DNA of 64,000 nt from Streptomyces sp. ICBB 8177 (GTDB lineage Bacteria > Actinomycetota > Actinomycetes > Streptomycetales > Streptomycetaceae), in NCBI RefSeq assembly GCF_003144095.1, contig NZ_NSKH01000018.1:751965-815964 (forward strand), in the 5' to 3' direction. Below are positions 5,694 to 64,000 of this stretch, piece after piece. Positions within the stretch are counted from its first letter, which is position 1; the number at the start of each line of letters is the position of its first letter. Both the position numbers and the translations under genes were made by a program. The notes below the pieces were generated by a model. The model had not been told where the DNA came from. It made no database searches and was given only the letters and a program-made list of their open reading frames with translations.

Positions 5694-5719
5694 GGGGTCC
5701 TCGGGCTGGTCGCGGCGGA

Positions 5720-6598: not shown

Positions 6599-6680
6599 GG
6601 CGGCGACTCCGTCAGCGAGAGGGATCACGTGAGGGTTCACGCGGGGAATCAGCGGAGGGGTGCGGCAAGCGAGCGCTTTA

Positions 6681-6722
6681 TTGAGGGTTACTCAACAGTA
6701 AGAGATATTGAGGTCCTGTCAA
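6681..6722. promoter_or_regulatory. Duplicated operator TTGAGG-N5-TCAA in divergent promoter
   Basis: Two 15-base elements share TTGAGG-N5-TCAA: one at 6681-6695 (a perfect TTGAG/CTCAA repeat) and one at 6708-6722. The second extends to TATTGA-N7-TCAATA (6706-6724). Their starts are 27 bases apart. They lie between the divergent hydrolase operon and the TetR gene, the second ending 12 bases before the TetR ATG, so they are very likely the autoregulatory TetR operators. Confidence 0.7.
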
Positions 6723-6734
6723 TAGGATGGGGAC

Positions 6735-7388
6735 ATGGCTCGTACCCCCGCCGCCCGCGCTCCGCGCATGCCGCCGACCGACCGTCGTACCCAGATCCTG
6801 TCGGCGGCCCGCCGCGTCCTGGAGGTCCGTCCGATCGACGACCTCTCGGTGGAGACCGTCGCCGCCGAGGCCGGGGTCTCGCCAGGACTGCTCTTCCACT
6901 ACTTCGGATCGCAGCGCAAGTTCCGGCACACCGTCCTGGAGGCCGCCGCGCAGGAACTCCTCGACCACGTGCGGCCCGACCCCGGCCTGAGCCCCGCCGC
7001 CCAACTGCGCGCCGGAATCGAGACCTTCGTGGACTACGTCACCCGGTATCCCACCATCTACCAGGCGGTGACCCGGCTGGGCGGCGGCGCGGGGGTGCGC
7101 ACCCTGCACCGCTCGGCGCGCTCGACGCTCGCGGGCTGGATCACCGAGGGACTGGCGAGCGCCGGGGCGCCGGTGACGCCCGCGCTGGCCTTCTCGGTCG
7201 CGGGCTGGCTCGCGTACATGGAGGAGGTCGTCCTCGCCTGGCTCGACGATCCCGCGATGGAACGCGCCGACCTGCTCGACCTGTGCGAGCGGACCGCCTA
7301 CCAGGTGGTGATGGTCGCGCTGGACGACCCCGCGCAGTGGGAACGCATCCGCGCCGGGATGCGCGCGGAACCGGAGGCGGGAGTGTGA
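6735..7388 (+). CDS. TetR-family repressor of the divergent oxidoreductase operon
   Basis: 217 residues. The N-terminal HTH (residues about 18-65) reads RRTQILSAARRVLE, then VETVAAEAGVSPGLLFHYFGS, the canonical TetR recognition helix. The C-terminal part is an all-helical ligand domain with the aromatic stretch YVTRYPTIYQAV. ATG 6735 has GGATGGGG just upstream. The gene is divergent from the hydrolase/reductase operon and separated from it by two matching 15-base operator-like elements, so it most likely represses both directions and responds to the operon substrate (inference). Confidence 0.92.
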   Translation: MARTPAARAPRMPPTDRRTQILSAARRVLEVRPIDDLSVETVAAEAGVSPGLLFHYFGSQRKFRHTVLEAAAQELLDHVRPDPGLSPAAQLRAGIETFVDYVTRYPTIYQAVTRLGGGAGVRTLHRSARSTLAGWITEGLASAGAPVTPALAFSVAGWLAYMEEVVLAWLDDPAMERADLLDLCERTAYQVVMVALDDPAQWERIRAGMRAEPEAGV

Positions 7389-43243: not shown

Positions 43244-44467
43244 ATGGTCGTCCCCACGGATCACTCCCGTCGTCGTGTCCTGAGCTGGGTCGCCGGACTG
43301 GGCGGCGGGGCGATCGCGGCGGCTCCCGCGCCCGGTCCGGCGCACCGGGCCGCCGCGCGCCCCGCCGCGCACCGCACCGCCACAGCGCGCCCAGCCACCG
43401 CACACCCCGTCACCGCCCGCACGCGGACCTACTTCGTCGCCGCCGACACCGTCGTGTGGAACTACGCCCCGCAGGGCCGCGACCTGATCGACGGGCGGCC
43501 GTTCGACGCGACGCAGGCACGCGTGGCGCTGCCCGGGCCCGGGCGGCTCGGCCCGGCCTACCTCAAGTCCCGCTACCGGCGCTACACCGACGCCACGTTC
43601 ACCGAGCGGTACACCGGCCCGGACGACGACGGCTTCTCGGGGATCCTCGGTCCGGTGGTCCGGGCGCGCGTCGGCGACACCGTCGAGGTGGTGTTCCGCA
43701 ACAACACCCCGTTCCCCGCCTCGATGCACCCGCACGGCGTTTTCTACACCGGGGCCAACGAGGGCGCGCAGTACGACGACGGCTCCGCGACGGCGGGCAG
43801 GCCGGGTGACGCGGTGGCCCCCGGCGCCACGTTCACCTACCGCTGGCAGGTGCCCGACCGAGCGGGCCCCGGCCCCGGCGACCCCTCGTCGGTCGTGTGG
43901 CTCTACCACGACCACAGCGCGGACATGGGCGTCCCCGGCGTCCAGTCCGGGCTGACCGGGCCCATCGTGGTGACCCGCGCGGACGCGGCGACCGCCGACG
44001 CGGCACCCTGCGACGTCGACCGCGAGGTCTTCGCCCTGTTCACCGAGTTCGACGAGAACTCCAGCCCGTACCTGAAGGACAACATCGCCCGCTTCGGACG
44101 CGGCCAAAGGCTCGACCCGTCGGACACCGCCTTCCAGAACTCCAACCGCAAGGAGACCATCAACGGTTATCTCTTCGGCAACGGCCCGAGCGGCACGAGC
44201 GAGGACCACCCGGCGCTCACCCTCGAGCGCGGCTCACGGGTGCGCTGGTACGTCCTGGACATGGGCGGCGCCCGGGACGCGCACACCCCGCACTGGCACG
44301 GCAACACCGTCCTGGTCCACGGCCACCGCGAGGACACCGTCCAGCTCCTGCCCGCCACGACCGTCACCGCCGACATGCGCCCCGACGACCCCGGCATCTG
44401 GCTCTTCCACTGCCACGTCGACGAGCACATGATCGGCGGCATGTCCACCCGCTACCGCGTGCTGTGA
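43244..44467 (+). CDS. Tat-exported multicopper oxidase
   Basis: 407 residues. A Tat signal (SRRRVLSWVAGLGG) and low-complexity Ala/Pro/Thr linker precede two cupredoxin domains. The four copper-binding segments are present: MHPHG, YHDHSADMG, HTPHWHGNTV and HCHVDEHMIGGM, the last with the Cys and axial Met of type-1 copper. The two-domain layout is like small laccases or ceruloplasmin-type oxidases. It ends 24 bases from the convergent spore-pigment hydroxylase, so oxidation of a pigment precursor outside the cell is possible (inference). Confidence 0.92.
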   Translation: MVVPTDHSRRRVLSWVAGLGGGAIAAAPAPGPAHRAAARPAAHRTATARPATAHPVTARTRTYFVAADTVVWNYAPQGRDLIDGRPFDATQARVALPGPGRLGPAYLKSRYRRYTDATFTERYTGPDDDGFSGILGPVVRARVGDTVEVVFRNNTPFPASMHPHGVFYTGANEGAQYDDGSATAGRPGDAVAPGATFTYRWQVPDRAGPGPGDPSSVVWLYHDHSADMGVPGVQSGLTGPIVVTRADAATADAAPCDVDREVFALFTEFDENSSPYLKDNIARFGRGQRLDPSDTAFQNSNRKETINGYLFGNGPSGTSEDHPALTLERGSRVRWYVLDMGGARDAHTPHWHGNTVLVHGHREDTVQLLPATTVTADMRPDDPGIWLFHCHVDEHMIGGMSTRYRVL

Positions 44468-47512: not shown

Positions 47513-47953
47513 GTGAACGACGCGCCCCAGTCCCCCCGCATCGTCACCCTCGCCGACACCCCGCCCAACCGCCGCCGCGGCGGCGACCTGCGAGCCATGC
47601 TCACCCCCTCGGCGGTGGGCGCGACCAGCGGATTCATGGGCGTCGCGCTGATCGGCCCCGGAGAGCGCATCGGTGAGCACTACCACCCGTACTCCGAGGA
47701 GTTCGTCTACGTCGTCCACGGCGACCTGGAAGTCGACCTCGACGGCGCACCGCACCCGCTGCTGCCGGACCAGGGGCTGCTGGTGCCCATCGGGACCCGG
47801 CACCGGTTCCGCAACGTCGGCGACCGCCCCGCCCGCATGGTCTTCCACCTCGGACCGCTGGCACCCCGGCCGGACCTCGGGCACGTCGACACCGAGGAGA
47901 CCCCCGCGCCCCCGCCACAGGGCGCCCGAGTGCCGGGAGGCGAGGCATCGTGA
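47513..47953 (+). CDS. whiE-ORFII: Cupin-fold protein (WhiE ORFII-like)
   Basis: 146 residues, one double-stranded beta-helix with [25 protein letters not shown] (metal-binding HYH...E) and [24 protein letters not shown]. Spore-pigment clusters always contain such a cupin, thought to act as cyclase or oxygenase on the nascent polyketide. GTG 47513 fits AGGAG five bases upstream. GTGA overlap with KS-alpha. Confidence 0.92.
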
Positions 47954-49218
47954 ACCGGCGCGTGGCCGTCACCGGCGTCGGCGTCGTGGCCCCCGGCGGC
48001 GCGGGCGTCCCCGCGTTCTGGGACCTGCTGACCGCCGGACGCACCGCGACCCGTGGCATCACGCTCTTCGACCCCGCCGGCTTCCGCTCGCGGATCGCCG
48101 CCGAGTGCGACTTCGACCCCTACGCCCACGGGCTGACGACCCAGGACACCCAACGGGCCGACCGCTACACGCAGTTCGCGATGGTCGCGGCCGACGAGGC
48201 GATGCGCGACAGCGGACTCGACACCTCGGGCGAGGACCCGTGGCGGCTCGGGGTGTCCCTGGGCACCGCGGTCGGCGGCACGACCCGCCTGGAACACGAC
48301 TACGTCGCGGTCAGCGAGCGCGGGGCGCGCTGGGACGTCGACCCGGACCGCGCGGGACCGCATCTGCACCGCGCCTTCGCCCCCAGCGCGCTCGCGTCCG
48401 AAGTGGCCGAACGCCTGGGCGCGCACGGCCCGGTGCAGACGGTCTCCACCGGCTGCACCTCGGGCCTGGACGCCATCGGCTACGCGTTCCACACCATCGA
48501 GGAAGGCCGCGCGGAGGTGTGCGTCGCGGGGGCGTCCGACTCGCCCGTCTCCCCCATCACGGTGGCGTGCTTCGACGCCATCAAGGCCACCTCGCCCAAC
48601 AACGACGACCCCGCCCACGCCTCCCGCCCGTTCGACGCCCATCGCGACGGGTTCGTCATGGGCGAGGGCGGCGCGGTCCTCGTCCTGGAGGAGCTGGAGC
48701 ACGCCAGGCGGCGCGGCGCCCGGATCCACTGCGAGATCCGCGGCTACGCCACCTTCGGCAACGCGTACCACATGACCGGCCTGACCCGGGAGGGCCTGGA
48801 GATGTCCGCGGCCATCGACGAGGCACTGCGGCACGCGCGGCTGGATCCCACCGACGTCGACTACGTCAACGCCCACGGGTCCGGGACCCGGCAGAACGAC
48901 CGGCACGAGACGGCCGCCGTCAAACGGTCCCTGCGCGAACACGCCCGCACCACCCCGATGAGCTCCATCAAGTCGATGGTCGGGCACTCGCTCGGCGCCA
49001 TCGGCGCGATCGAGGTCGTCGCCTGTGTGCTGGCCCTCGTCCACGGCGTCGTCCCGCCGACCGCGAACTACGAGACGCCCGACCCGGAGTGCGACCTGGA
49101 CTACGTGCCGCGCCAGGCACGGCCGTTGAGGCTGCGCAACGTGCTGTCGGTCGGCAGCGGGTTCGGGGGCTTCCAGTCCGCCGTCGTCCTCGGCCGCACC
49201 GAGGGGAGCCGGCGATGA
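47950..49218 (+). CDS. whiE-ORFIII: Type II PKS ketosynthase alpha (WhiE ORFIII-like)
   Basis: 422 residues. Condensing-enzyme signatures: [13 protein letters not shown], active-site Cys169 in [12 protein letters not shown], His in [13 protein letters not shown], and [18 protein letters not shown]. With KS-beta it builds the poly-beta-ketone chain of the grey spore pigment. GTG 47950 overlaps the cupin stop. ATGA overlap with KS-beta. Confidence 0.97.
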
Positions 49219-50432
49219 GCGGCCGGACGGTGATCACCGGGATCGGTGTCGTCGCGCCCAACGGCATCGGGACGGACGCCTTCTGGAAGGCGACCAAGGA
49301 GGGCGTGAGCGTCCTGGACACCATCGGGCGCGACGGCTTCGACGGACTGCCATTGCGGATCGCCGGCCAGGTCCGCGGATTCGACGCCACCGCGATGATC
49401 GAGGAGCGGTACCTCGTCCAGACCGACCGGTTCACCCACTTCGCGATGGCCGCCGCCGACCTCGCCCTCGCCCAGTCCGGACCGCCCGCGCCGGACGGCT
49501 CACCGCTGGACGTCGCCGTGGTGACCGCAGCCGGTTCCGGAGGCGGCGAGTTCGGGCAGCGAGAACTGCAGAAGTTGTGGGGGCGCGGCTCCCGGCACGT
49601 CGGCCCGTACCAGTCCATCGCCTGGTTCTACGCGGCCAGCACCGGCCAGATCTCCATCCGCGGCGGCTTCAAGGGCCCGTGCGGGGTGGTCGCCGCCGAC
49701 GAGGCGGGGGGCCTGGACGCGCTCGCCCACGCCCGCCGCAGCCTGCTGCGCGGCACCCGCGCGGTGGTGGTCGGCGCGGCGGAGGCACCGCTCGCCCCCT
49801 ACTCGGGAGTCTGCCAGCTCGGCTACGAGGAGTTGAGCCTCGTCCCCGACGCCGACCGGGCCTACCTGCCGTTCACCACGAGTGCCCGCGGGTTCGCCCC
49901 GGCCGAGGGCGGCGCGATGTTCGTCGTCGAGGACGCTCGCGACGCGGCCGATCGCGGGGCGACTCCGCGTGCCGTCGTCGCCGGGCACGCCGCCACGTTC
50001 ACCGGTGCCTCGCGCTGGGCGGAGTCCCGCGAGGGGCTGGCCAGGGCCGTCCGCGGCGCCCTGGACGACGCCCGCCTCGCGCCCCGCGACGTCGACGTCG
50101 TCTTCGCCGACGCGCTCGGCACCCCGTGGGCCGACCGGGCCGAGGCGCTCGCCCTGCGCGACGCGCTCGGTCCGCACGCCGCACGGGTACCGGTGACGGC
50201 CCCCAAGACCGGGACCGGACGGGCCTATTGCGGCGCCCCGCTGCTGGACACCGCCGCGGCCGTGCTCGCCCTGGAGCACGACACCGTGCCGCCCACCCCG
50301 CACGTGCACGAGGTCTGCCACGACATCGACCTGGTCACCGAGCGGCCCCGCCCCGCCGAGCTGCGCACCGCTCTCGTCCTCAGCCGCGGGCTCATGGGAT
50401 CCAACGCCGCGCTGGTGATCACCGCGCCCTGA
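49215..50432 (+). CDS. whiE-ORFIV: Type II PKS chain length factor / KS-beta (WhiE ORFIV-like)
   Basis: 405 residues, the catalytically silent partner of KS-alpha. The usual active-site Cys is replaced: [15 protein letters not shown] has Glu163 where most CLFs have Gln. [44 protein letters not shown] and the end [11 protein letters not shown] are typical. It sets chain length and forms the heterodimer tunnel. Confidence 0.96.
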
Positions 50433-50501
50433 AGTCAGCACAAGTGGCCACATCCGCAAAGCCATTCACACCCCGAAACGACCCCACCGAAGGAGGAACC
50501 C

Positions 50502-51544
<1,043 letters not shown>

Positions 51545-51545
<1 letters not shown>

Positions 51546-53341
51546 TGGATTCCGGCAACGAGACGACCACCGCGGCGGTGCGGGCGGCCCCCGGCCGCGC
51601 CGTGCCGGCCTGGGTGCGCTGCGACGGATGCGAGACGCTGATCTACGGCAAGCGGTTCGCACGCGGCATCCGGGTCTGCCCCGAGTGCGGCGAGCACGCC
51701 CGGCTCACCGCCCGCGACCGGATGGAGTACCTGCTCGACCCCGGATCCGCGCGGCTGCTGGAGAGCGCGGGGCCGCCGCACGACCCGCTCGACTTCACCG
51801 ACACCAAGCCGTACGCGGACCGGCTGGCGGAGGCCAGGGACGTCACCGACCTGAACGAGGCGGTGCTGTGCGCCCACGGTGCCATCCAGGGGCAGCCGGT
51901 CGTGGCGGCCGTCATGGACTTCCGCTTTCTCGGCGGCAGCCTCGGCTGCGGCGTGGGCGCCCGCATCACCGACGCGGCCCGCACCAGCCTGCGACTGCGC
52001 GTCCCGCTGCTGCTGGTCACCGCCTCCGGCGGGGCCCGGATGCAGGAGGGCGCGCTGTCGCTCATGCAGATGGCCAAGACCGCACAGGCGCTCGCCGACC
52101 TGGACGAGGCCGGGATCCTGGTCGTCTCGCTGATCACCGACCCGACCTACGGGGGAGTGGCCGCCTCGTTCGCGACCCTCGCCGACGTCATCCTCGCCGA
52201 ACCGGGCGCGCGACTGGGGTTCGCCGGGCCCCGGGTCATCGAACAGACCACCCGGGAGCGGCTACCGGCCGGATTCCAGACCGCGGAGTTCCTGCTCGGC
52301 CACGGGCTCGTCGACGACGTGGTGCCGCGCGCCGCCCTGCGCGGGCGGCTGGCGAACCTGCTGGCCCTGGGCCGACCGGGAACGAAGCCGGAGCCCGGCC
52401 GCCCGGACCGTGTGGCCCCGGACCGCCCGGCGTCGGGCCGGCCGGAGCCCACCGGCGCCGAGGCCGGTACCGACCCCGGGGCCGAACGGCCGCCCGGCGA
52501 CGAGGCGTTGCTGCGGCGCATGGAGGACCTGCCGAGGCGCGAGGCGTGGGAGGCGGTCCGGCTCGCCCGGCACCCCGACCGGCCCACGACGGCGCAGTAC
52601 GCCGAACACCTGCTGGAGGACTTCCAGGAACTGCACGGGGACCGCTCCACCGCCGACTGCCCGGCGCTCATCGGCGGCCCCGGACGGCTCGACGGCCGGC
52701 CGGTGATGCTCATCGGCCACGACAAGGGCGGCCCGCGCCTCGCCGAACGGCAACGCCACCACTTCGGCATGGCGACCCCCGCGGGCTACCGCAAGGCGGC
52801 GCGGCTGATGCGCATGGCCGCCAAACTCGGCCTCCCCGTCGTCGCGTTGATCGACACACCCGGGGCCAACCCCGGCGCCGACGCCGAGTCCGGCGGGCAG
52901 GCCGTCGCCATCGCGGAGAACCTGCGCCTGATGTCCCGCCTGCCGGTGCCCATCGTCGCGGCGATCACCGGCGAGGGCGGCAGTGGCGGAGCGCTCGCCC
53001 TGGCCGTCGCCGACCGGGTGCTGATCAGCGTCAACGGCATCTACTCGGTCATCAGCCCGGAGGGCTGCGCCGCGATCCTGTGGAAGGACGCCGAGGCGGC
53101 TCCGGAAGCCGCCAGCGCCCTGCGGCTGCACGCCCGCGACCTGCTGCGCCTCGGCGTGGTCGACGGGGTCGTGCCGGAGCCCGAGGGCGGCGCGCACGAG
53201 GACCACACCGAGGCCGCCGCGCTGCTCGGCCGGGCGCTCACCGCGACCCTGGGGGGACTGGTGCCCTGGGACGCCGAGCAACTGCTGCGGGCCCGGCACG
53301 AACGATTCCACCGTTTCGGACTGGAAGAGACACCACGGTGA
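51545..53341 (+). CDS. Fused acetyl-CoA carboxylase carboxyltransferase (AccD-AccA)
   Basis: 598 residues. Residues 25-285 are the beta subunit with zinc ribbon CDGC...CPEC and [25 protein letters not shown]. After a Pro/Gly/Arg-rich linker (about 285-325) the alpha subunit follows (320-595: [60 protein letters not shown]). It transfers the carboxyl group from biotin to acetyl-CoA, making malonyl-CoA. Coupled to the pigment cyclase gene, so a dedicated supply line for the polyketide synthase is likely. Confidence 0.94.
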
Positions 53342-53913
53342 AGACCAACACGGACAAGTGGACAGAACCGATCGTGCGCGCCCCGCTGGACGAGCACGAA
53401 CCGCGGCCCGAACACCCGCCCCGTAAGGCCGACGTCGAGCGGCTCTGCCAGGGCGTCGCCGAACTCGCGCGCACCTTCGACGCGCCACCGCGCCGGATCA
53501 GGCTGCGCAGCGGGACGGCCTTCGTGGAGGTGGAGTGGCCCACGGCGCCGCCCACCCCGCCACCCGCCGACCGCGCGGGGCCCGCACCCGCCGCGCCCGC
53601 CGCCCCCGTCGACCGCCAGGAGGGCGCCGCGACCGACGCCCCCGCGCGGGACACCAGGCACTACGTGGACGCGCCCGGCGTGGGCACCTTCTACCACGCC
53701 CCGGAACCCGGCGCGCCCGCGTACGTATCGGTCGGTGACGTGGTGCGGCCAGGGCAGCCGGTCGGCGTGCTGGAGGTCATGAAGATGACGAGCACCATCG
53801 AGGCGGACGTCGCCGGACGCGTCGTGGAGATCCTGGCCGAGGATGCCCAGGGCGTCGAGTACCAACAGCACCTGATCGCGCTGGAACCGCTCACCACGAC
53901 GACGGGGGAGTGA
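53338..53913 (+). CDS. accB: Biotin carboxyl carrier protein (AccB-like)
   Basis: 191 residues. The C-terminal biotinyl domain (about 107-187) contains [10 protein letters not shown] and the biotin site EVMKM with Lys149. The N-terminal helix ([17 protein letters not shown]) and a Pro/Ala-rich linker are as in AccB. GTG 53338 overlaps the carboxyltransferase stop. Six bases later the biotin carboxylase gene begins. Confidence 0.95.
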
Positions 53914-53919
53914 ACCGCC

Positions 53920-55278
53920 GTGTTCTCCACCGTACTCGTCGCCAACCGAGGCGAGATCGCCCTGCGCGTCGCCCGCGCCTGCCGCGAACTGGGCATCCGT
54001 ACCGTGGCGGTGTACTCCACCGCCGACCGCGACTCGGCGGTGGTGCGGTTCGCCGACGACGCGGTGCACATCGGGCCCGCACCCGCCAAGGCCGGATACC
54101 TCAACATCCCCGCCGTCGTGGAGGCCGCCCGGCTCACCGGAGCCGAGGCGCTCCACCCCGGCTACGGATTCCTGTCCGAGGACCCCGACTTCGCGGAGGT
54201 CTGCGAGGCGGAGGGCATCACCTTCATCGGGCCGGCCCCGCAGGTGATGCAGCGCCTCGGCGACAAGGCGGCCTGCCGCGCGCTGATGGCCGACGCCGGC
54301 CTTCCGGTCCTGCCGGGCAGCACCGGGCCTTTGACGTCGGCGGCGGAGGCCGGGGACGTGGCGCGGCGCACCGGTTACCCGGTCATCCTCAAGGCGGTGG
54401 CCGGAGGCGGCGGCCGGGGCATGGCCGTCGTCCGCGACCCCGCCGACCTGGTGGCGGCCTACCGCGCCACCCGCGCCCAGGCCTTCGCGGTCTTCGCGGA
54501 CGAACGGCTCTATCTGGAGCGGTACGTGGAGCAGGCCCGGCACATCGAGGTGCAGGTGCTGTGCGACCGCCACGGCGGCGCCGTTCACCTCGGCGAACGC
54601 GACTGCTCGGTGCAGCGCCGCCACCAGAAGCTCATCGAGGAGTCCCCGGCGCCCGGACTGACCCCGGCGTTGCGCGAGCGGATGTGCGAGACGGCCGTAC
54701 GCGGCGCGCTGGCCGCCGGGTACACCGGCGCCGGGACCTTCGAGTTCGTCCTCACCCCGCAGGACGACTTCTACCTGATGGAGGTCAACTGCCGTCTCCA
54801 GGTGGAGCACCCGGTCACCGAGATGGTCACCGGCATCGACATCGTCCGGGAGCAGATCCTCATCGCCGACGGACAGCCCTTGACGTTGCGTCAGGACCAG
54901 GTCGCGCCCAGGGGGGTCGCCATCGAGTGCCGGGTCAACGCGGAGGACCCCGCCCGCGGCTTCGCGCCCGCCCCCGGCACCCTGACCGAATTCGTCCCGC
55001 CGGGCGGCCCGTTCGTACGGGTCGACACCCACGCCTTCGCCGACTGGGAGGTTGGGCCGCACTACGACTCCCTGCTCGCCAAGACCGTGGTGTGGGCGCC
55101 GGACCGCGAGCAGGCCAGGGCCCGGATGGACCGGGCGCTGGGGGAGTTCAGGATCGACGGCAAGGGGATGCGCACCACGGCGGAGTTCCTGCGCTCGGTC
55201 CTGGCCCATCCGAGGTTCCGCGCCGCGTCCCACACCACGTCCCTGGTCGGGTCGATGAACGACGAGGCCGCGGCCTGA
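53920..55278 (+). CDS. accC: Biotin carboxylase (AccC-like)
   Basis: 452 residues, ATP-grasp fold. VLVANRGEIALRVARACRELGI, LHPGYGFLSED, GGGGRGMAVV, ERDCSVQRRHQKLIEE, FEFVLTPQDDFYLMEVNCRLQVEHPVTE and ECRVNAEDP are all in place. It carboxylates biotin on the BCCP. GTG 53920. It is the last gene of the pigment/carboxylase operon; a 282-base gap follows. Confidence 0.96.
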   Translation: MFSTVLVANRGEIALRVARACRELGIRTVAVYSTADRDSAVVRFADDAVHIGPAPAKAGYLNIPAVVEAARLTGAEALHPGYGFLSEDPDFAEVCEAEGITFIGPAPQVMQRLGDKAACRALMADAGLPVLPGSTGPLTSAAEAGDVARRTGYPVILKAVAGGGGRGMAVVRDPADLVAAYRATRAQAFAVFADERLYLERYVEQARHIEVQVLCDRHGGAVHLGERDCSVQRRHQKLIEESPAPGLTPALRERMCETAVRGALAAGYTGAGTFEFVLTPQDDFYLMEVNCRLQVEHPVTEMVTGIDIVREQILIADGQPLTLRQDQVAPRGVAIECRVNAEDPARGFAPAPGTLTEFVPPGGPFVRVDTHAFADWEVGPHYDSLLAKTVVWAPDREQARARMDRALGEFRIDGKGMRTTAEFLRSVLAHPRFRAASHTTSLVGSMNDEAAA

Positions 55279-55371: not shown

Positions 55372-55400
55372 GCCCGCCCACGGGCGGAACGGCGCCACCA

Positions 55401-55439
55401 CGACATCGGGTGGCAGTTGTAGGGGTTCCCCCAATGTCG
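55401..55439. promoter_or_regulatory. Inverted repeats upstream of the peptide gene
   Basis: CGACAT (55401-55406) and ATGTCG (55434-55439) flank TTGTAGGGGTTCCCCCAA, itself a partial inverted repeat (GGGG-TT-CCCC at the centre) that resembles the CTVGGGAWWTCCCBAG sites of PimM-type LuxR regulators. The site lies 120-160 bases before the peptide ATG and is a good candidate for control by one of the LuxR proteins encoded downstream. Confidence 0.45.
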
Positions 55440-55560
55440 CGTTCCCGCGTGAGTGCCACGCTGCTGTCCGGCCGGAAGACCGGCCGCAGCGCGGTAACGC
55501 GCAATCGCGTCGTGGACGCCTCACCCGGGGCGCCCGCTTGTCCTCAGGACGGAGAACCCG

Positions 55561-55662
55561 ATGAAGAAGATCGCCATCCGCAAGCCCGGTTCCGTGCGTC
55601 TGACCTCCGCCGCCCACGCGCTCTACGGCGGCTCCTGCGGCATCATCATCGCCAAGGCCTGA
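55561..55662 (+). CDS. Candidate RiPP or signal-peptide precursor
   Basis: 33 residues. It begins MKKIAIRKPGSVRLT and ends LYGGSCGIIIAKA. The first part is basic and could serve as a leader recognised by the PqqD-like domain next door; the end is small and hydrophobic with one Cys, and GG at 23-24 is a possible cleavage point. The ATG has GGAG seven bases upstream. A strong hairpin separates it from the protease gene, a common way to keep the precursor abundant. I do not know a family for it. The assignment rests on size, composition and context. Confidence 0.62.
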   Translation: MKKIAIRKPGSVRLTSAAHALYGGSCGIIIAKA

Positions 55663-55685
55663 CGCGTCCGGCGAGTTACCGCAGG

Positions 55686-55717
55686 GGAGAGCCCGGTCCA
55701 CGGGGGCCGGGCTCTCC
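55686..55717 (+). terminator. Attenuator-like hairpin between peptide and protease genes
   Basis: GGAGAGCCCGG (55686-55696) and CCGGGCTCTCC (55707-55717) form a perfect 11-base-pair stem with a 10-base loop, 23 bases after the peptide stop and 48 bases before the protease start. Partial read-through would give more peptide than enzyme. Confidence 0.72.
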
Positions 55718-55765
55718 TCCCGCCCCCACGGTCCATCCCGCAGAACCGACTGGAGCGCACCGGCC

Positions 55766-57082
55766 GTGTCCACCGTGATCCCAGGCGACGAACTTCCCGG
55801 CGACCCGGTACCGTCCGGCGAGGCCGCACCCGCCGGCGCGTCACCCGGCGACGCGGCGGCGGGGGGCGCCCCGGCAGCAGTGCCGCCCGGCGCCCCCGTC
55901 CGCCTGTACCCGCTGACCTACCTGGACGAGGGCGACGAGGTCACCGTGGGCCGTCCCGACATCGACTCCTACGCGGTCCTGCCCGCGGACGGCGCGGCAC
56001 TGCTGCGCCGCCTCGGCGACGGCGTACCGCCCGCGCAGGCCGCCGCGTGGTACCGGCAGACCTACGGAGAGCCCGTCGACATCGACGACTTCGTGGACAC
56101 GCTGCGCGAGCTGGACTTCGTCCGGCAGGCCGACGACGACGCCGAACCGGCGGCCCGGCCGGTGCGCTGGCGGGCCCTGGGCGCCGCCGTCTTCTCACCC
56201 GTCGGCGCGGTCTGCCTCGCCGCGCTGCTGACGGCGTGGGTGGTGGCCATGGTCCGCTCGCCGGGCCTGGTCCCCACGTACCACAACCTGTTCTTCACGC
56301 GGTACATGACCGTCCTCGAACTGGTCACGTTCGTCTGCCAGTTCCCGCTGATCCTGCTGCACGAGGCCGCCCACGCGCTCGCCGGACGGCGACTCGGGCT
56401 GCGCTCCCGGCTGTCGATCGGGCGGCGCCTGTACTACGTGGTGTTCCAGACCACGATGGACGGCCTGGTGTCGGTGCCGCGCCGCAAACGCTACGTGCCG
56501 ATGCTCGCCGGCATCCTCACCGACCTCGCCGTCCTGGCAGCGCTCACCCTGGGGGCGGCGGCCACCGAGGGACCGGACGGCCACCCCTCGACCACCGGCC
56601 GCATCCTGCTGGCGCTGGCCTACATGACGCTGCTGCGGGTGTCGTGGCAACTGTGGTTCTACCTGGAGACCGACCTGTACTACGTCGTCGTCACCGTGCT
56701 GGACTGCGTCGACCTGCAAGCCACCGCCCGCGACGTGCTGCGGCAGCGGCTCAACCGGCTGCTGGGGCGCCCGCACACCGTGCCGGACGAGACGCGCTGG
56801 CACCCGCGGGACCTGTCGGTCTCGCGCTGGTACTCCTGGCTGCTGCTGGTCGGCTGGACCGTCTCGATCGGCACGCTGCTCGCGGGCGTGCTGCCGGTCG
56901 CCGTACGGGTGCTGTCCACCGTACTGGGACGCCTGGTCACCTCCCACACGCACGGCACCGCGGGCCTGCTGGACAGCGTGGGCTTCCTCGTCATCAACCT
57001 CGCCCAACTCGCCGTCATCGCCCACCTGGTACGGCGCGAACGCCGCGCGCGCCGGGCCCGGTCGTCCGACGTCCCGTCCTGA
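55766..57082 (+). CDS. PqqD-like::M50 membrane metalloprotease
   Basis: 438 residues. After a Pro/Ala/Gly-rich head, residues 48-122 (VRLYPLTYLDEGDEVTVGRPD ... TLRELDFVRQ) look like a PqqD/RRE peptide-recognition fold. The rest has six or more transmembrane helices with the zinc motif HEAAH (His199, Glu200, His203) and a later LETDLYYVV whose Asp could be the third ligand, as in M50 site-2-type proteases. It would bind the leader of the adjacent peptide and cut it at the membrane (inference). GTG 55766 with GGAG upstream. Confidence 0.85.
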   Translation: MSTVIPGDELPGDPVPSGEAAPAGASPGDAAAGGAPAAVPPGAPVRLYPLTYLDEGDEVTVGRPDIDSYAVLPADGAALLRRLGDGVPPAQAAAWYRQTYGEPVDIDDFVDTLRELDFVRQADDDAEPAARPVRWRALGAAVFSPVGAVCLAALLTAWVVAMVRSPGLVPTYHNLFFTRYMTVLELVTFVCQFPLILLHEAAHALAGRRLGLRSRLSIGRRLYYVVFQTTMDGLVSVPRRKRYVPMLAGILTDLAVLAALTLGAAATEGPDGHPSTTGRILLALAYMTLLRVSWQLWFYLETDLYYVVVTVLDCVDLQATARDVLRQRLNRLLGRPHTVPDETRWHPRDLSVSRWYSWLLLVGWTVSIGTLLAGVLPVAVRVLSTVLGRLVTSHTHGTAGLLDSVGFLVINLAQLAVIAHLVRRERRARRARSSDVPS

Positions 57083-57095
57083 CCGGAGGAAACAC

Positions 57096-59297
57096 ATGAC
57101 CGTGACGCCCCGTCACCAGTGGATCAAGGCACCGCGCCGGACCCAGCGGATTCGGACGGCCGAACTGTCGCGAACCGAGCAGCAGTTGACGCCGGTGATC
57201 GACGCCCACCGGCGGCTGCGCGGGCCCTACACGGCGGCGGGCGCGATCGCACGGGCACTGGTGCCGCGGGTCCTGGACGCGACACCCGACCTGGTGACCG
57301 CCCACACCATCGAACTGCTCACCGTGGCACCCGAGTTGCGCGGCGCCGTGCCCGCCACCCGTGAGACGCTCACCTCGCTGGCCGTGCCCGAGGAGCGCAC
57401 CCGCTTCTACTCCCGGCTGCGCACCCTGCGGATCGCGCACGGCCTCGCCGAGTTCCTGCGCGACCACGCCGCAGCCTCGGGAGGCGGTCCGTACGGGCTC
57501 ACCGTCGAGAACGTGCACGCCGCCGACGCCACCGACCGTGAACTGCTGGCCGTCCTGCTGCGCAGGATCGACCCCGCACTGCTGCGGCTGACGCTGTGCG
57601 GCGCCCCCGACGGCGAGGAGACCGCCGAGGGCGCGGAGTCGCTCGCCGAGGCACTGGAACGCCACGCCGAACACGTCGAGGCCCTGCCGCTCAGCGAAGC
57701 CGACACCCTCGTGCTCTGCGGCTCGCGGGATCTCGCGTGGGAGTACATCGCCTCCGACTGCACCGACGACACCCCCGCCCTGAAGGCCGCCTACCACGCA
57801 CTCCCGCTACCCGAACGCGCCGTGCTGCACGACCGCAGGGCGGCGGAACTGGAGGCCACCGGCGAGGCGTCCTGGCTGCTCGGCGCCGTCCCGTACCACC
57901 GCGAACACGGCACCGATCCGGCCGGCGCCGGGGTGCGGGCCCTGCGCACCGCGCTCGACACCTGCATCGACACCGGCTTCTACGAGGCCACCGTCGACTT
58001 CGGCAGGCGCGGGCGCGCGCTCGTCGACCAGGACGGGGACCGCGACCAGTGGTGGGCGTTCACCACCAAGATGACCACCTCGCTCGCGGCCCTGTCCCGC
58101 CCCGAGGAGGCCGAGGCGCTCTACGACGAGGCCCGGGCGGTCTGCGCCGACCCGGCCGTCCACCTCCAGGCCGCCTACGCCACCGCCATGCTCTACACCC
58201 GTCACCACGGCACCGAGCGGCGCGACCACCACACCGCGCTCGGCTGGATCAACGAGGCCATCGCCATCTCCACCCTGCTGCCCGACGAGCGGCAACGCGC
58301 CTTCCACACCGTCTTCCACCAGAACGGCCTGGCCCTCATCGAGAACCACCTCGGCCGCCCCGAGGAGGCCCTGCGCCTGGTCACCGAGGGACTCGCGCGC
58401 CTGGAACGGGAGTTGGGGCCCGACGAGCACCGGCTGCACCGCTCTGTCCTGCGCTACAACCGCGCCCAGGTGTACGCGGGCCTCGGCCGCCTCGACGAGG
58501 CGCTCGCCGACTTCACCGATGTCATCGCCGAGGACCCCAACTACCCCGAGTACCACTTCGACCGCGCGGGCGTGCTGCGGCGGCTCGGCCGCGACGACGA
58601 GGCGCTCGCCGAGTACGAGGCCGCGATGCGGCTCAGCCCGCCCTTCCCCGAGCTGTACTACAACCGCGGCGACCTCAGGGCGGCCCACGGCGATGTCGAA
58701 GGGGCGCTCGCCGACTTCGCCTACGTCCTCGACATCGAGCCGCGGTACGTCGACGCGCACGTCAACCTGGCCGGGCTGCTGGTGGAGGAGGGCGACACCC
58801 GGCGGGCGGCCGAGGTGGTCGCCGCCGGCCTCGCGGTGGACCCGGCCAACGCCTACCTGCTGTGCCTGCTGGGGCGCCTGGAGGCCGACGCGGGCCGCGC
58901 CGACCGCGCCCGCGCCGCGCTGGACGCCGCCGTCGAGGCCGACCCGCGCTGCGCCGAGGCGCTCGCCACCCGCGCGGTCCTGGCCTTCGAGACCGGTGAC
59001 CTGCCCGGCGCCGTCGAGGACTTCAGCCGTTCGCTGGAGATCGCCCAGGACCCCGTCGTGCTCTTCAACCGCGGCAGCGTCCACGAGGAACTGGGCCGCT
59101 GGAAGGAGGCCGCCGCCGACTTCGACCGCGTGGTGGAACTGGACCCGGAGGGGCCGGACGGCTGGCTGCGGCGCGGCGCCTGCCGACTGCGGCTCGGCGA
59201 CGAACCAGGCGGCCGGGCCGACCTACGGCGCTTCACCACGCTGGCACCGGAGCGAGCCCCCGAGGCGGCGGCGCTCTGCGCCCCGGCGGGCGGCTGA
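57096..59297 (+). CDS. TPR protein with degenerate ATPase-like head
   Basis: 733 residues. Residues 30-200 resemble a STAND/AAA module without a working P-loop: RRLRGPYTAAGAIARAL stands where Walker A would be and LTVENVHAADATDRELLAVLLRR where the DDxHWAD Walker B is expected. From about 330 on, at least eight tetratricopeptide repeats follow (e.g. DEALADFTDVIAEDPNYPEYHFDRAGVL). No HTH or membrane helix. TPR arrays bind peptides, so it may sense or carry the product of the peptide gene (inference). GGAGG before ATG; 13 bases after the protease gene. Confidence 0.82.
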   Translation: MTVTPRHQWIKAPRRTQRIRTAELSRTEQQLTPVIDAHRRLRGPYTAAGAIARALVPRVLDATPDLVTAHTIELLTVAPELRGAVPATRETLTSLAVPEERTRFYSRLRTLRIAHGLAEFLRDHAAASGGGPYGLTVENVHAADATDRELLAVLLRRIDPALLRLTLCGAPDGEETAEGAESLAEALERHAEHVEALPLSEADTLVLCGSRDLAWEYIASDCTDDTPALKAAYHALPLPERAVLHDRRAAELEATGEASWLLGAVPYHREHGTDPAGAGVRALRTALDTCIDTGFYEATVDFGRRGRALVDQDGDRDQWWAFTTKMTTSLAALSRPEEAEALYDEARAVCADPAVHLQAAYATAMLYTRHHGTERRDHHTALGWINEAIAISTLLPDERQRAFHTVFHQNGLALIENHLGRPEEALRLVTEGLARLERELGPDEHRLHRSVLRYNRAQVYAGLGRLDEALADFTDVIAEDPNYPEYHFDRAGVLRRLGRDDEALAEYEAAMRLSPPFPELYYNRGDLRAAHGDVEGALADFAYVLDIEPRYVDAHVNLAGLLVEEGDTRRAAEVVAAGLAVDPANAYLLCLLGRLEADAGRADRARAALDAAVEADPRCAEALATRAVLAFETGDLPGAVEDFSRSLEIAQDPVVLFNRGSVHEELGRWKEAAADFDRVVELDPEGPDGWLRRGACRLRLGDEPGGRADLRRFTTLAPERAPEAAALCAPAGG

Positions 59298-59305
59298 CGG
59301 GGGGA

Positions 59306-59343
59306 GCGCCCGCGCCGGAGCCTGTCGGATCCGGCGCGGGCGC
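59306..59343 (+). terminator. Hairpin terminator of the peptide-protease-TPR unit
   Basis: GCGCCCGCGCCGGA (59306-59319) and TCCGGCGCGGGCGC (59330-59343) form a perfect 14-base-pair stem with a 10-base loop, directly after the TPR gene stop. Confidence 0.85.
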
Positions 59344-59456
59344 GGTATGACGGTGGGAGGGACCGGCGCCGCCTCCTGGCGGCGGACGGACCGGGCGGGG
59401 CAGTCCCTGCCAAGGGTGTCGTGCCCCGGGAGGAGTCCCGCGGCCTCGGGGGAGCC

Positions 59457-62261
59457 ATGGAACGAGTCGACCCACCCGGACGGACCGTCACGGTCCGCCG
59501 GGCACGACAGGGCGGGCCGCGCGCGGCCTTCCCGGAGCGGGCGCTGCCCGTTTCGATGACCGGCCGGGACCGCGAACTGGCACGCGTCATCGCGGCGTTG
59601 ACCGGCGGCGGACCGGGCGGTACGCCGTTCGTCGAGGTCACCGGCGACCCGGGAACCGGCAAGAGCCTCCTGCTCGCCGAGGCGTGCGAACGTCTCGCGG
59701 CCCGGGGAACGGTCGTCATCCGCTCCGACGGCGCCCGCGTCACCGGCGCCGTGCTGTCCGCGCTGCCCGCCCGCACGGGCTCCGGACAACGGGTCCTGCT
59801 CGTCCTGGACGACCTGCACCGCGCCCGCCCCGAGGCGCTGGACGCGTTGCGCCGCGTGCGGTCGGCCGTGCTGTGCGCGTACCGCGTCCGCCAAACGCCG
59901 CCGGGCCTGGTGCGGCTGCTGCGTGAACTGCCGGGCGACCGCGAGAGGGTGGGCGTCGACCTCGGCCCGCTCGACGCGGCCGACGCCCGGCGGCTGACGG
60001 GCCTGCCGGTGGACGGCGAGGACGCGGACTGGTGCGCCCGGGCCGGCGGGGGAGTGCCGCGCCACGTCATCTGGGTGGCGCGCAGCCCCCGCCTGCCCTC
60101 GGCGGCGCGACGCCGTGCGGGAGACGGCTTCACCGACCTCCTACCGCTGCCCGCCCACCCGGTCGTGGACGCCGAACTCGACGCTCTGGAGGGCGTGGTG
60201 GGCCGGGTCGCCCGCGCGGCCGCGGTGGTCGGCGACCCCTTCGCGGCCGAACCGACGGCCGCCGTCGCGGGTGTGGACACCGCGACGTTCCTCGCAGCCG
60301 CCGACGACCTGGTCCGGCGCGACCTTGTACGGCCCGACCCCGAGGGCTGCGGTCTGCTGCGCTTCCGGCACCCTCTGGTCCGCGCCCGCCTGTACCAGCG
60401 GATACCCGTTGCCGACCGCCTCTCGGCCCACCGGCACGCCGCCGCCCTGCTCGCCGGGACCGGTACGCCGGCCGCCCGCGCCCGCCACCTGTCCCGAGGC
60501 GCGCCGGCCACCGGTTTCGAGGCCGCGGCGGTGCTGGCGGAGGCGGCGGCCTGCGACCTGGGCCTGCACCCGGCCCGCGCGGTGGTGTGGGCCGGTGAGG
60601 CGCTGCGCCGGCTGCCCGCGCGTGCGGCCCGCGACCGGGGCCGGACGCTGGTGCTGCTCGCGGAGGCGCTGGGCACCGACGGGCGGCTGCGCGAGGCGCG
60701 GGCCGTGCTGGCGACCGTGGCGGACGACCCCGCGCGACGGGTCGCCGTGGCACGCCTGAGCGCCCGCTACGCACGGCAGTTGGGGCGGCACACGGAGGCG
60801 GCCGAGGTGCTGCGCCGGGGCGCGACCGGCACTGAGGGCCCAGGAGCGTGCGACCCTTCGGGCGAGGTGGCCCTGCGGTGGGAGGCGGCGCTCGGCGCGC
60901 TGGCCGCGGGGGACACGGCTGCCGCCCGGCGCGCGGCCACGAAGCCGTGGCGATCGTCGTGTCCTTCGGCTCCGGACTCCCGGCTGCGCGGTGCGGTACT
61001 GCGGGCGGCGACAGCGGCATTCGATCACGGACCGCCGACCGCCGACCACCAACTGCGCCGCGTCGCCGCAGAGTTCGACGCCCTGCCCGATCCGGCCCTG
61101 GTGCCGCTGCTGGACGCCGTGGTCCTCACCGCCGCCGCCCGCCGCGCCGTCGGCCCTGCGGCGGAGGCGTCGCGGCTCGCCGACCGCGCGGTGGGGATCG
61201 CTCGCCGCACCGGTCAACGCGGGCTGCTGCCCGAGGCGTTACTGGCGAAGGGCGCCGCACTGCTGGACCTCGGCGCGCTGGAGGCGGCCAGGGCATGTTG
61301 CGAGGAGGCGGCCCGGCTGGCCCGGGACACCGGGGCGGTGGAACACACCGGTGGGGCGCTCGCGCTGCTCGCGGAGTACGAACGCCACACCTCGGGGCAC
61401 GGTCCCGGCGCCGCGTACCAGCAGGCACGGCGTGCGCTGGAGGCACGTCCGGCCTCACGGCTCACCGTCATGGCCCGCGCCAGGCTGTGGTCGGTGTCGC
61501 CCGCCGGACGGGCCTGCGGCCTCGTCGCGATCGCGGGTGGCGAGGGCCTGCCGGGGCTCGACCGCTGCGAACATCCGCGCTGGATGCGGGCGTTGGCCGA
61601 GGCGGAAGTACGGGCTGGGGACACCGGGGCCGCCCGGGTCTGGGCGCGCCGGGCCGCGGGGGCCGCCGACGACCTCGGCTCGCCGGTGCAGACGGCGCAC
61701 GCGCTGGCGGCACGGGCCGCCGTCGCGCTGGCCCGCGGCGACTTCCCGGCGGCCGGAGCCGCGGCGCGGTCCGCGGCGGAGGCTTTCGGACGGGCGGGGG
61801 CGGCGCTGGAGGAGGGCGCGGCACTGCTTGCGCTGGCCCGCGCGCTCGCGGGGGAGGGGCGGTGGGCGCTGGTGCCGCCGGTGCTGGCGAGGGTCCGCGC
61901 GATCGCCGCCGAGTGCGGCTCCCGGGGTCTGCACGGACGCGCGGTGGCGGAGCAGCGCAGGGTGATGTCGCTGGCCGGGCGCGTACCGGAAGCCGTCCGG
62001 ACGCCCGTCGAATCCTCCGGGGGCGGCCGAAGGGACGCACCGGCGGGCGGTGGGGCGCCGGCCCTGACCCGGCGCGAGTCCCAGATCACCGGACTGGTCG
62101 CGAGCGGTCTGCCGAACAGCCAGGTGGCGGCCAGGCTCGGCGTCAACGCCAAGACCGTCGAGGCCCATCTCACACGGATCTACCGGAAGTTGGGCATCAC
62201 ACGGCGATCGTCCCTGGTCTCACTGCTGGCCGCGGGGACACCCGGCAGGGCCGGCCACTAG
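59457..62261 (+). CDS. LAL-type LuxR regulator with in-frame TTA codon
   Basis: 934 residues. An AAA/STAND ATPase opens it (Walker A VTGDPGTGKSLLL about 60-73, Walker B VLLVLDDLHRARPEALD), TPR-like repeats fill the middle, and the last 65 residues form a LuxR HTH (LTRRESQITGLVASGLPNSQVAARLGVNAKTVEAHLTRIYRKLGI). Large ATP-binding LuxR regulators usually activate secondary-metabolite genes. Codon 595 (61239-61241) is TTA, read by bldA tRNA, which suggests developmental control. Residues around 495-510 (60938-60985) may be locally out of frame. ATG 59457 after GGGGGAG. Confidence 0.9.
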   Translation: MERVDPPGRTVTVRRARQGGPRAAFPERALPVSMTGRDRELARVIAALTGGGPGGTPFVEVTGDPGTGKSLLLAEACERLAARGTVVIRSDGARVTGAVLSALPARTGSGQRVLLVLDDLHRARPEALDALRRVRSAVLCAYRVRQTPPGLVRLLRELPGDRERVGVDLGPLDAADARRLTGLPVDGEDADWCARAGGGVPRHVIWVARSPRLPSAARRRAGDGFTDLLPLPAHPVVDAELDALEGVVGRVARAAAVVGDPFAAEPTAAVAGVDTATFLAAADDLVRRDLVRPDPEGCGLLRFRHPLVRARLYQRIPVADRLSAHRHAAALLAGTGTPAARARHLSRGAPATGFEAAAVLAEAAACDLGLHPARAVVWAGEALRRLPARAARDRGRTLVLLAEALGTDGRLREARAVLATVADDPARRVAVARLSARYARQLGRHTEAAEVLRRGATGTEGPGACDPSGEVALRWEAALGALAAGDTAAARRAATKPWRSSCPSAPDSRLRGAVLRAATAAFDHGPPTADHQLRRVAAEFDALPDPALVPLLDAVVLTAAARRAVGPAAEASRLADRAVGIARRTGQRGLLPEALLAKGAALLDLGALEAARACCEEAARLARDTGAVEHTGGALALLAEYERHTSGHGPGAAYQQARRALEARPASRLTVMARARLWSVSPAGRACGLVAIAGGEGLPGLDRCEHPRWMRALAEAEVRAGDTGAARVWARRAAGAADDLGSPVQTAHALAARAAVALARGDFPAAGAAARSAAEAFGRAGAALEEGAALLALARALAGEGRWALVPPVLARVRAIAAECGSRGLHGRAVAEQRRVMSLAGRVPEAVRTPVESSGGGRRDAPAGGGAPALTRRESQITGLVASGLPNSQVAARLGVNAKTVEAHLTRIYRKLGITRRSSLVSLLAAGTPGRAGH

Positions 62262-62276: not shown

Positions 62277-64000
62277 TCACGTCGTGCGCGGCGGCCCCGC
62301 CGCCGTCGTCGTGCCGTCCCCGCGGAACTCGTGCCCGCCCATCGCCACGAGGGCGGAACGGGACGTCACCCCGAGCTTGCGGTACGTCCGGGTCAGATGC
62401 GCCTCGACCGCCTTGACGGTCACGTGCAGCCGTTGCGCCACCTGCGCGTTGGTCAGCCCCGACCGCACCAGCGCGACCACGTCGTGCTCGCGCTGCGTCA
62501 GGTCCGCCGGACGCTTCCGCTCACCCGGCGGGGTCGCGGCGGCTGACGGGTGGACGTCCGCCGCACCCGACGGGCTCAACTGGCCGTAGCGGTACGCCGC
62601 CCGGTCGGCCAGGCCGCGGGCGCCCCCGGCGTCGCCGATGGCCCACGCCCGGGCCAGCTCCGCCCGCGCGGCCCCCGCCCTCCCCGACGCGGCCCGCGCC
62701 TCGGCGGCCAGCAACCGGCAGCGCGCCTCCTCCAACGGCTGACCGCAACGCCCGAACGTCGCCGCCGCCCACCGCGCGACGGTCGCCGCGCCGGCCGGAT
62801 CGCCGGTGCGCAGCAGCAGTTCGGCCCTGGCCGCCAGCGCGTGGCCCCGCTGGGCGGGCAGCGACACGGCGGCCGGGTGCGTCAGCGCCCTCCGTACCAG
62901 TGGCTCCGCCTCGTGCGGCCGCCCGAGGACCAGCAGCGCCTCCGCCTGGACCGCGAGCCACATCGGCAGGGCGCACACGTCGACTCCGGGCATCCCCGGT
63001 CCGCCACCCGCGTCGTCCAGAACGCGCAACGCCTCCAGCGCGTCGCCCTCCAGCAGCCTGACCCGGGCCAGGATGCGCCGGGCGACGCCCGTCCACCAGC
63101 CGCGCCCCCGGCTGCCCAGCCGCACCGCCCGCTCCGCCACCGGAGCGGCACCGGCAGGGCCGTCTCGCCACAGCAGCGCCCCGGCCCGCATCGACAGGGC
63201 GAACGCCAGCATCGGATCGCTGCGCAGCAGGCGGCTGCGTTCCTCCGCCTCGTCGGCGGCGCGCAGCGCGGCGCGCACGTCGCCGAGCCGGAGGACGGCG
63301 AGAATCTGGCCGATGAGCAGATACGTCGACAAATGGCTCTGCCCGGTGTGCTCCGCGACCCGCAGGCCCCGGGCGAAGTGCTCGCTCGCCCGCGCGGGCT
63401 GCTCCAACAGGACCTGTGCCCAGCCGAGTTGACCCAGGCAGTCCAGCAGCGGCGCCAACTCGTCCTCGGAGCGGCCGGACAGCAGCCCGTTGGCCTGCCG
63501 CGCCGACTCGAGGGCGTGCGGAACGCTCCCGCGGCACGCCTCGACGAGGGCCCGGGTGCTCAGCGCGAGCAGCCGCGCGTCGTCGGCGACGGACCGGTCG
63601 GCGCAGGCCCGCACCGCACGCCGCACGTGATCGACCGCCTGCCGCCGTCCGGCCAGCACCTCGCAGGCCGCCCGCAGGGCCAGCACCGACGGCAGATCGG
63701 GACCACCGCGGCGGGACTCCTCGTGCAGTACGGCGGCGCCCTCCTCGTACTTGCCCTGCATGCGGTCGACCAGCGACAGCAGCCGCAACGCCGCCGCCCG
63801 GTGCGGTGAGTTTGGCGGCAGTGCCGCCAGCAGGTCGTGCAGGATGCGCCGCCCACGTTGGAGATCACCGGCCGCCGCGCAGGCGTGGGCCAGCAGCAGC
63901 GACAGTTGCCGCCGCGCCCCGGACTCCCCCTCGGGCAGCAGGGGCAGCGCGCGCCCGAGCCAGTGCGCCGCCGACGCCGGAACGCTGCTCAGCACCGAAC
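62277..64000 (-). CDS. LAL-type LuxR regulator, C-terminal part (cut by window edge)
   Basis: At least 574 residues; the frame runs off the right edge, so the N-terminal ATPase domain is not visible. The visible part is TPR-like helical repeats followed by a LuxR HTH (LTQREHDVVALVRSGLTNAQVAQRLHVTVKAVEAHLTRTYRKLGV). It is convergent with the other LAL gene, only 15 bases apart. It may be the second regulator of the peptide or pigment genes (inference). I saw no TTA codon in it. Confidence 0.9.
   Translation of the reverse strand, partial: SVLSSVPASAAHWLGRALPLLPEGESGARRQLSLLLAHACAAAGDLQRGRRILHDLLAALPPNSPHRAAALRLLSLVDRMQGKYEEGAAVLHEESRRGGPDLPSVLALRAACEVLAGRRQAVDHVRRAVRACADRSVADDARLLALSTRALVEACRGSVPHALESARQANGLLSGRSEDELAPLLDCLGQLGWAQVLLEQPARASEHFARGLRVAEHTGQSHLSTYLLIGQILAVLRLGDVRAALRAADEAEERSRLLRSDPMLAFALSMRAGALLWRDGPAGAAPVAERAVRLGSRGRGWWTGVARRILARVRLLEGDALEALRVLDDAGGGPGMPGVDVCALPMWLAVQAEALLVLGRPHEAEPLVRRALTHPAAVSLPAQRGHALAARAELLLRTGDPAGAATVARWAAATFGRCGQPLEEARCRLLAAEARAASGRAGAARAELARAWAIGDAGGARGLADRAAYRYGQLSPSGAADVHPSAAATPPGERKRPADLTQREHDVVALVRSGLTNAQVAQRLHVTVKAVEAHLTRTYRKLGVTSRSALVAMGGHEFRGDGTTTAAGPPRTT

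Follow-up and report, generated by a model that had tools for sequence, protein, structure and literature searches.

Introduction

Lasso peptide systems have a lasso cyclase alongside their soluble cysteine protease, epipeptides require a radical SAM epimerase, and some members of the RRNPP family of peptide signaling systems undergo M50-type processing. Among ribosomally synthesized and post-translationally modified peptides (RiPPs), the M50 proteases TglG, TmoG, and EpeP are described in PMC10885120 as acting on precursors, and TmcP is a leader peptidase of the site-2 protease (S2P) clan in the TMcin cluster (PMC13252029). Here we analyze a cassette in a 64,000-nucleotide stretch of the Streptomyces sp. 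ICBB 8177 genome (contig NZ_NSKH01000018.1, positions 751,965 to 815,964; hereafter the window) that encodes a short precursor peptide, a protease joining a predicted RiPP recognition element (RRE) to an M50-like S2P domain, and a tetratricopeptide repeat (TPR) protein. We propose, with a probability of roughly 0.7, that this is an undescribed RiPP-type cassette in which one fused protein binds the leader of the precursor and removes it at the membrane.

The pearlins, or 3-thia-amino-acid RiPPs (TglG, TmoG), likewise process a short ribosomal peptide within the cell by means of a membrane M50 protease. In the available sections of PMC10885120, however, a scaffold peptide serves for building their modified amino acid, which is then cleaved from the scaffold's C-terminus, and no fusion of an RRE to an M50 protease is described for them; our cassette lacks a conserved matching ligase. 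No peptide-aminoacyl-tRNA ligase was seen among the conserved neighbors or the tested open reading frames (ORFs) of the window, with no dedicated model searched. The epipeptides (EpeX/EpeP) share a very small operon and, in the same sections, an M50 protease thought to cleave and export the product. They differ in their epimerase; no radical SAM gene is conserved across the 135 clustered loci that carry the cassette, and no radical SAM domain was found by Pfam in the flanking window ORFs tested.

The TMcins resemble the cassette in having an S2P-clan leader peptidase in a RiPP cluster, but their precursor is transmembrane with two universally conserved Cys in a disulfide, and their protease belongs to DUF3267 (PMC13252029); the cassette precursor is soluble, and its protease does not match the DUF3267 model. 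In lasso B1/B2 systems (TbiB1, 5v1u), which provide the closest RRE structures, the RRE hands the leader to a soluble protease, whereas in the cassette the RRE and a membrane metalloprotease form one protein. RRNPP systems (Rap, NprR) likewise combine a short peptide and a TPR protein. In contrast to these, the cassette precursor has no Sec-like signal and is not hydrophobic, an RRE is present, and the TPR protein has no match to a DNA-binding domain. We found neither the leader motif nor an RRE-S2P fusion with a TPR partner described in the literature searched, which covers few subscription papers; the PGAP names for plasmid homologs are 'hypothetical protein' and 'tetratricopeptide repeat protein'.

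Results

A conserved family of short peptides precedes the protease

From a scan of 84,980 species genomes, we fetched the best 80 of 210 relatives, a selection that favors close relatives. Directly before nearly all close protease homologs, and on their strand, lies a short ORF whose leader reads MKKIx(V/I)RKxGxVRLT, followed in the family consensus by S or A; 77 of the 80 loci carry this motif upstream of the protease. A variant leader, MKK(V/I)VVRKTQAVKLT, in two Ktedonobacter loci (L117 and L120; L numbers are our locus labels) brings the total to 79, leaving L164 as the only fetched locus with no leader-bearing short ORF. The preliminary description of this DNA had proposed looking for just such a conserved small ORF in relatives, and the prediction held. 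The TPR gene stands behind the protease in all 80 loci.

The tiny peptide gene is spread over well over a hundred soil bacteria. The short ORF and the protease are found together in Ktedonobacter (Chloroflexota) and in over 20 genera of actinobacteria; the complete cassette in the Ktedonobacter loci L117 and L120 suggests transfer between phyla. Of 150 relatives from 60 genera, 46 relatives in 15 genera have a protease homolog, but only 4 of 396 genomes in a sample drawn evenly across the phylum do.

The family has the organization of RiPP precursors, a constant leader followed by a variable core. Across 95 distinct precursors, the R, L, and T of RKxGxVRLT are invariant, the V/I column is filled in all 95, and G is present in 92. 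Differences between closely related copies fall at codon positions 1, 2, and 3 in a ratio of 142/165/486 (the pairs are not independent), and the peptide gene is identical in DNA between the window and Streptantibioticus parmotrematis. In 100 relatives, short ORFs with a genuine leader occur in cassettes only; there were no orphan precursors distant from a protease, and the remaining pattern matches lie inside longer frames. Tandem precursor copies are found in L097, L101, L125, and L130; in L125 and L130 these form arrays of two to four genes upstream of the protease, including one that seems to be in decay. A chance ORF is ruled out by family conservation, codon bias, and synteny, and by its sequence the 33-residue ORF is a member of a real precursor family.

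Across the 135 clustered loci, with neighboring genes called by a simple GC-frame script, the only universal genes besides the precursor are the M50 protease and the TPR gene, in invariant order. A 4-bp overlap between the protease and TPR genes is common, as is a gap of no more than 20 bp. Between the precursor and protease genes, 50 of 68 testable loci have a perfect stem of at least 8 bp, and in 48 loci the stem reaches p ≤ 0.05 against shuffled sequence (a shuffle that preserves base composition only). This hairpin may serve to yield more precursor than protease and TPR protein. Several elements named in the preliminary description, namely a peptide gene with its own ribosome-binding site, a perfect hairpin behind it, and a TPR gene after the protease, are indeed in place (Table 1). 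The strong terminator that it also named stands only in part: the repeat behind the TPR gene is perfect, but it has no T-run and does not match the intrinsic-terminator consensus, so that 'strong' says too much. Inverted repeats lacking a U-run are common in high-GC actinobacteria. We found no sigma-70 consensus in the block upstream of the peptide gene and no known RNA family in the window.

Table 1. Coordinates of the cassette and of the adjoining regulator genes, numbered within the window.
Feature	Position	Strand	Evidence and remarks
Upstream block, likely promoter/5' region of the cassette	55393..55560	+	Near-identical in Streptantibioticus parmotrematis L095; diverges further upstream
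GGAG ribosome-binding site of the peptide gene	55551..55554	+	Sequence; 6 bases ahead of ATG
Precursor peptide gene, 33 aa, MKKIAIRKPGSVRLTSAAHALYGGSCGIIIAKA	55561..55662	+	Family conservation; GC by codon position 0.52/0.55/0.94
Conserved leader MKKIAIRKPGSVRLT	55561..55605	+	Column counts, 95 distinct precursors
Variable core SAAHALYGGSCGIIIAKA with Tyr and Cys	55606..55659	+	94/95 cores with Y and C; leader/core border approximate
Hairpin, perfect 11-bp stem, between precursor and protease genes	55686..55717	+	Sequence; recurs in relatives
RRE-S2P fusion (M50-like), 438 aa	55766..57082	+	AlphaFold, fold matches, alignment
RRE/PqqD-like domain, residues 43-122	55892..56131	+	Structure search with AlphaFold model
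S2P fold, residues 178-381	56297..56908	+	Structure search and invariant motif
HEAAH, protease residues 199-203	56360-56374	+	Sequence
TPR protein, 733 aa, with GGAGG ribosome-binding site	57096..59297	+	AlphaFold, Pfam TPRs, fold search
Perfect 14-bp inverted repeat 3' of the TPR gene, probable transcript end	59306..59343	+	Sequence; no T-run
Large LuxR-type regulator (AAA_16 and GerE)	59421..62261	+	Pfam
Second LuxR-type regulator, C-terminal GerE, cut by window end	62277..63995	-	Pfam

The protease joins a predicted RRE to a site-2 protease fold

The AlphaFold model of the protease (pLDDT 87.6) predicts an RRE fold at the N-terminus. Aligned with VIA-align, residues 43-122 match TbiB1 (5v1u) at Z 10.3, another lasso B1 protein (6jx3) at Z 9.9, and PqqD (5sxy) at Z 7.9, so that the closest RRE matches are leader-bound lasso B1 proteins. 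A leader-recognition element encoded beside the precursor, a trait of some but not all RiPP systems, is thus found here at the level of fold. The preliminary description had read this protein as a membrane protease with a PqqD-like fold and an HEAAH motif, and had named an RRE-like fold in the N-terminus as the point to check; the structure search bears this out, and the Pfam PqqD model PF05402 passes its gathering score in the L057 homolog, the only one to do so among the homologs tested.

Residues 178-381 match RseP (Z 7.6), SpoIVFB (Z 7.2), and the Methanocaldococcus jannaschii S2P, mjS2P (Z 5.7), middling scores for a helical fold, and Pfam PF02163 is below its cutoff for the window protease and one homolog. 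H199, E200, H203, and D303 are invariant across 71 aligned protease sequences, and the invariant T302-D303 probably supplies the third zinc ligand. The protease therefore has both the S2P fold and the HExxH with a distal Asp that define the M50 class, and it is the combination of motif and fold that makes the assignment firm.

In the mechanism that we favor, the ribosome would make the 33-residue precursor, whose leader, MKKIxVRKxGxVRLT, would add as a beta-strand onto the N-terminal RRE of the protease; by analogy with the lasso B1 complexes, its alternating hydrophobic residues suit such strand addition. The attached S2P domain would then cut off the leader at the membrane, and the core so released, about 11-20 residues long, is presumably exported. 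Peptides that are soluble and not hydrophobic are unusual as S2P substrates, and together with the S2P fold this would also fit a short peptide that inhibits or activates the protease, the real substrate being another membrane protein in a classic case of regulated intramembrane proteolysis. We consider this quite improbable: the leader/core split, the variable C-terminus, the tandem precursors, and the RRE domain are hallmarks of a substrate. A role in anti-phage defense was rejected; no PADLOC model matches the protease, and the TPR protein gives only a weak, TPR-driven match (1e-5).

The TPR protein

The model of the TPR protein (pLDDT 94.4) shows an N-terminal alpha/beta domain (about 1-260) followed by a TPR superhelix (about 273-733). 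The superhelix matches LGN, OGT, NprR, and Rap in fold searches, although such TPR matches are generic. The N-terminal 260 residues are conserved in alignments; AAA_16 scores weakly on them (E 0.0016 in one homolog), and a profile-profile comparison with the neighboring large LuxR-type regulators (LALs), based on the idea of a degenerate STAND/LAL NTPase, gave no match. Pfam finds no helix-turn-helix or other DNA-binding domain. We suggest that the protein works in the cytoplasm as a partner of the system, with the precursor, the core, or a helper enzyme as its ligand.

The core pairs a tyrosine with a mobile cysteine

Both Tyr and Cys are present in the cores of 94 of the 95 distinct precursors; the one that lacks the pair comes from L125, a locus that also has normal copies, and seems to be a decayed extra copy. 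The first Tyr is the seventh residue after RLT in 70 of these precursors, and the Cys lies anywhere from four residues before to sixteen after the Tyr. Only one Cys is present in 53 of the 95 cores, so no internal disulfide can form in those. A fixed Tyr with an obligatory but mobile Cys suggests a Cys-dependent step, which may produce a thioether, a thiolactone, or another cross-link in a freed core containing one Tyr and at least one Cys. Core type follows the protease tree. A separate cassette lies on a linear Streptomyces plasmid (L175, 5731-9368) with transposase genes around it; its peptide has a related leader and a divergent core lacking Tyr and Cys.

The core might instead be processed without modification, its Cys and Tyr serving in metal binding, disulfide dimerization, or activity. 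The window copy and most Tyr-before-Cys relatives, which have no adjoining modifying enzyme, fit this account. We nonetheless find it doubtful, given that a chemical link explains a near-universal Cys at shifting positions more easily than a fixed binding site does, and that flavin enzymes and a B12-radical SAM enzyme stand beside other members of the family.

Accessory enzymes and regulators adjoin many cassettes

Of the 80 loci, 36 have a flavin reductase gene (PF01613) that starts immediately after the TPR gene, and the distal flanks contain none; in many relatives a flavin reductase or old yellow enzyme (OYE) gene ends the operon. The family as a whole is therefore not enzyme-free. The earlier proposal of a RiPP or processed signal lacking any standard modifying enzyme thus fits the window and its subclass, but not these relatives. 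Where present, the flavin enzyme would be the modifier; in the window's subclass, an enzyme would act in trans. In three loci (L065, L067, and L068), a B12-binding radical SAM gene lies behind the TPR gene, the only neighbor of that modifying-enzyme type seen.

Genes for Streptomyces antibiotic regulatory proteins (SARPs) were found in about 39 loci, at a density per 100 kb of 17.5 just downstream of the cassette and 5.9 just upstream, compared to 0.5-2.3 in distal bins. Flavin reductases and SARP regulators are local accessories, not universal components. When the Cys precedes the Tyr, 29 of 35 loci have a flavin enzyme and 33 of 35 a SARP; when it follows, as in the window, each is found in 4 of 27. 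The window's own subclass has neither a flavin reductase nor a SARP; two LuxR-type regulators adjoin, and the first of them is linked to the cassette in three Streptantibioticus species (the same cluster in L035/L036). Compared with the distal flanks, the immediate neighborhood of the cassette is much richer in regulators, whether SARPs or the LuxR-type LALs of the window.

These regulators raise the possibility of peptide signaling, in which the core is a pheromone matured by the RRE-S2P protein and sensed inside the cell by the TPR protein, a receptor of the RRNPP kind that acts on the neighboring SARP or LuxR-type regulator. The resemblance of the superhelix to Rap and NprR, among many TPR folds, and a BTAD regulator beside a plasmid locus of the sister architecture described below are in keeping with this. 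SARPs, however, are ordinary pathway activators of biosynthetic clusters, the TPR matches are generic and come with no Pfam match to a DNA-binding domain, and no oligopeptide importer is conserved nearby. We regard such a circuit as possible but rather unlikely.

Upstream of the cassette, the window contains a type II polyketide core (47950-55278) with two ketosynthase-fold proteins, an acyl carrier protein, and a cyclase, beside a dedicated set of acetyl-CoA carboxylase subunits; a multicopper oxidase (Cu-oxidase_2/3, 43244-44464) lies further upstream. We rejected the cassette as part of this polyketide cluster: among clustered carriers, S. parmotrematis alone shares the polyketide and carboxylase genes, which makes the cassette a unit of its own.

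In a sister architecture (L033, L070-L073, and L176 at 4829-7197), a ThiF/E1-like protein has as its neighbor an M50-like protein that is distant from the window protease (about 28-35% identity), and there is no TPR gene. Short ORFs such as MKIEVKKVEKVQATIYMPPPKL lie ahead of some of these loci. The pair is also found on several Streptomyces plasmids; the BTAD regulator lies beside the one inspected.

Discussion

The interpretation as a RiPP-type cassette is supported by several lines of evidence: the conserved leader and variable core; an RRE fold nearest to leader-bound lasso B1 proteins, joined to an S2P fold with an invariant HExxH...D; the invariant precursor-M50-TPR order with no other universal gene; the recurring hairpin and tandem precursor copies; the concentration of flavin reductase, OYE, and SARP accessories beside the cassette; and the precedent of M50 and S2P-clan proteases (TglG, TmoG, EpeP, and TmcP) already known to act on RiPP precursors. 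Several points weigh against it. The window's own subclass has no modifying enzyme, and no exporter or immunity gene is conserved around the cassettes. The association between core type and flavin enzyme is confounded by phylogeny; related species dominate each group, and a tree-based test had too few independent changes.

A more specific proposal, that the RRE-membrane S2P fusion with its TPR partner defines a new RiPP class whose product is a Tyr-Cys cross-linked signal that switches on SARP or LuxR-type regulators of antibiotic clusters, is speculative and in our judgment unlikely in this full form. Antibiotic-like and signal-like uses are both compatible with the data, and the linkage to regulators points to secondary metabolism either way.

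As a unit of peptide maturation, the cassette is minimal, widespread, and apparently undescribed, and a single fused protein in it seems to combine leader recognition with membrane proteolysis. RiPP systems are usually found via their modifying enzymes, so cassettes of this kind can escape genome mining. The obligatory Tyr/Cys pair leads to a specific prediction about the chemistry, and close linkage to regulators of the antibiotic-cluster type makes the cassette a candidate for a layer of peptide control in actinomycetes.

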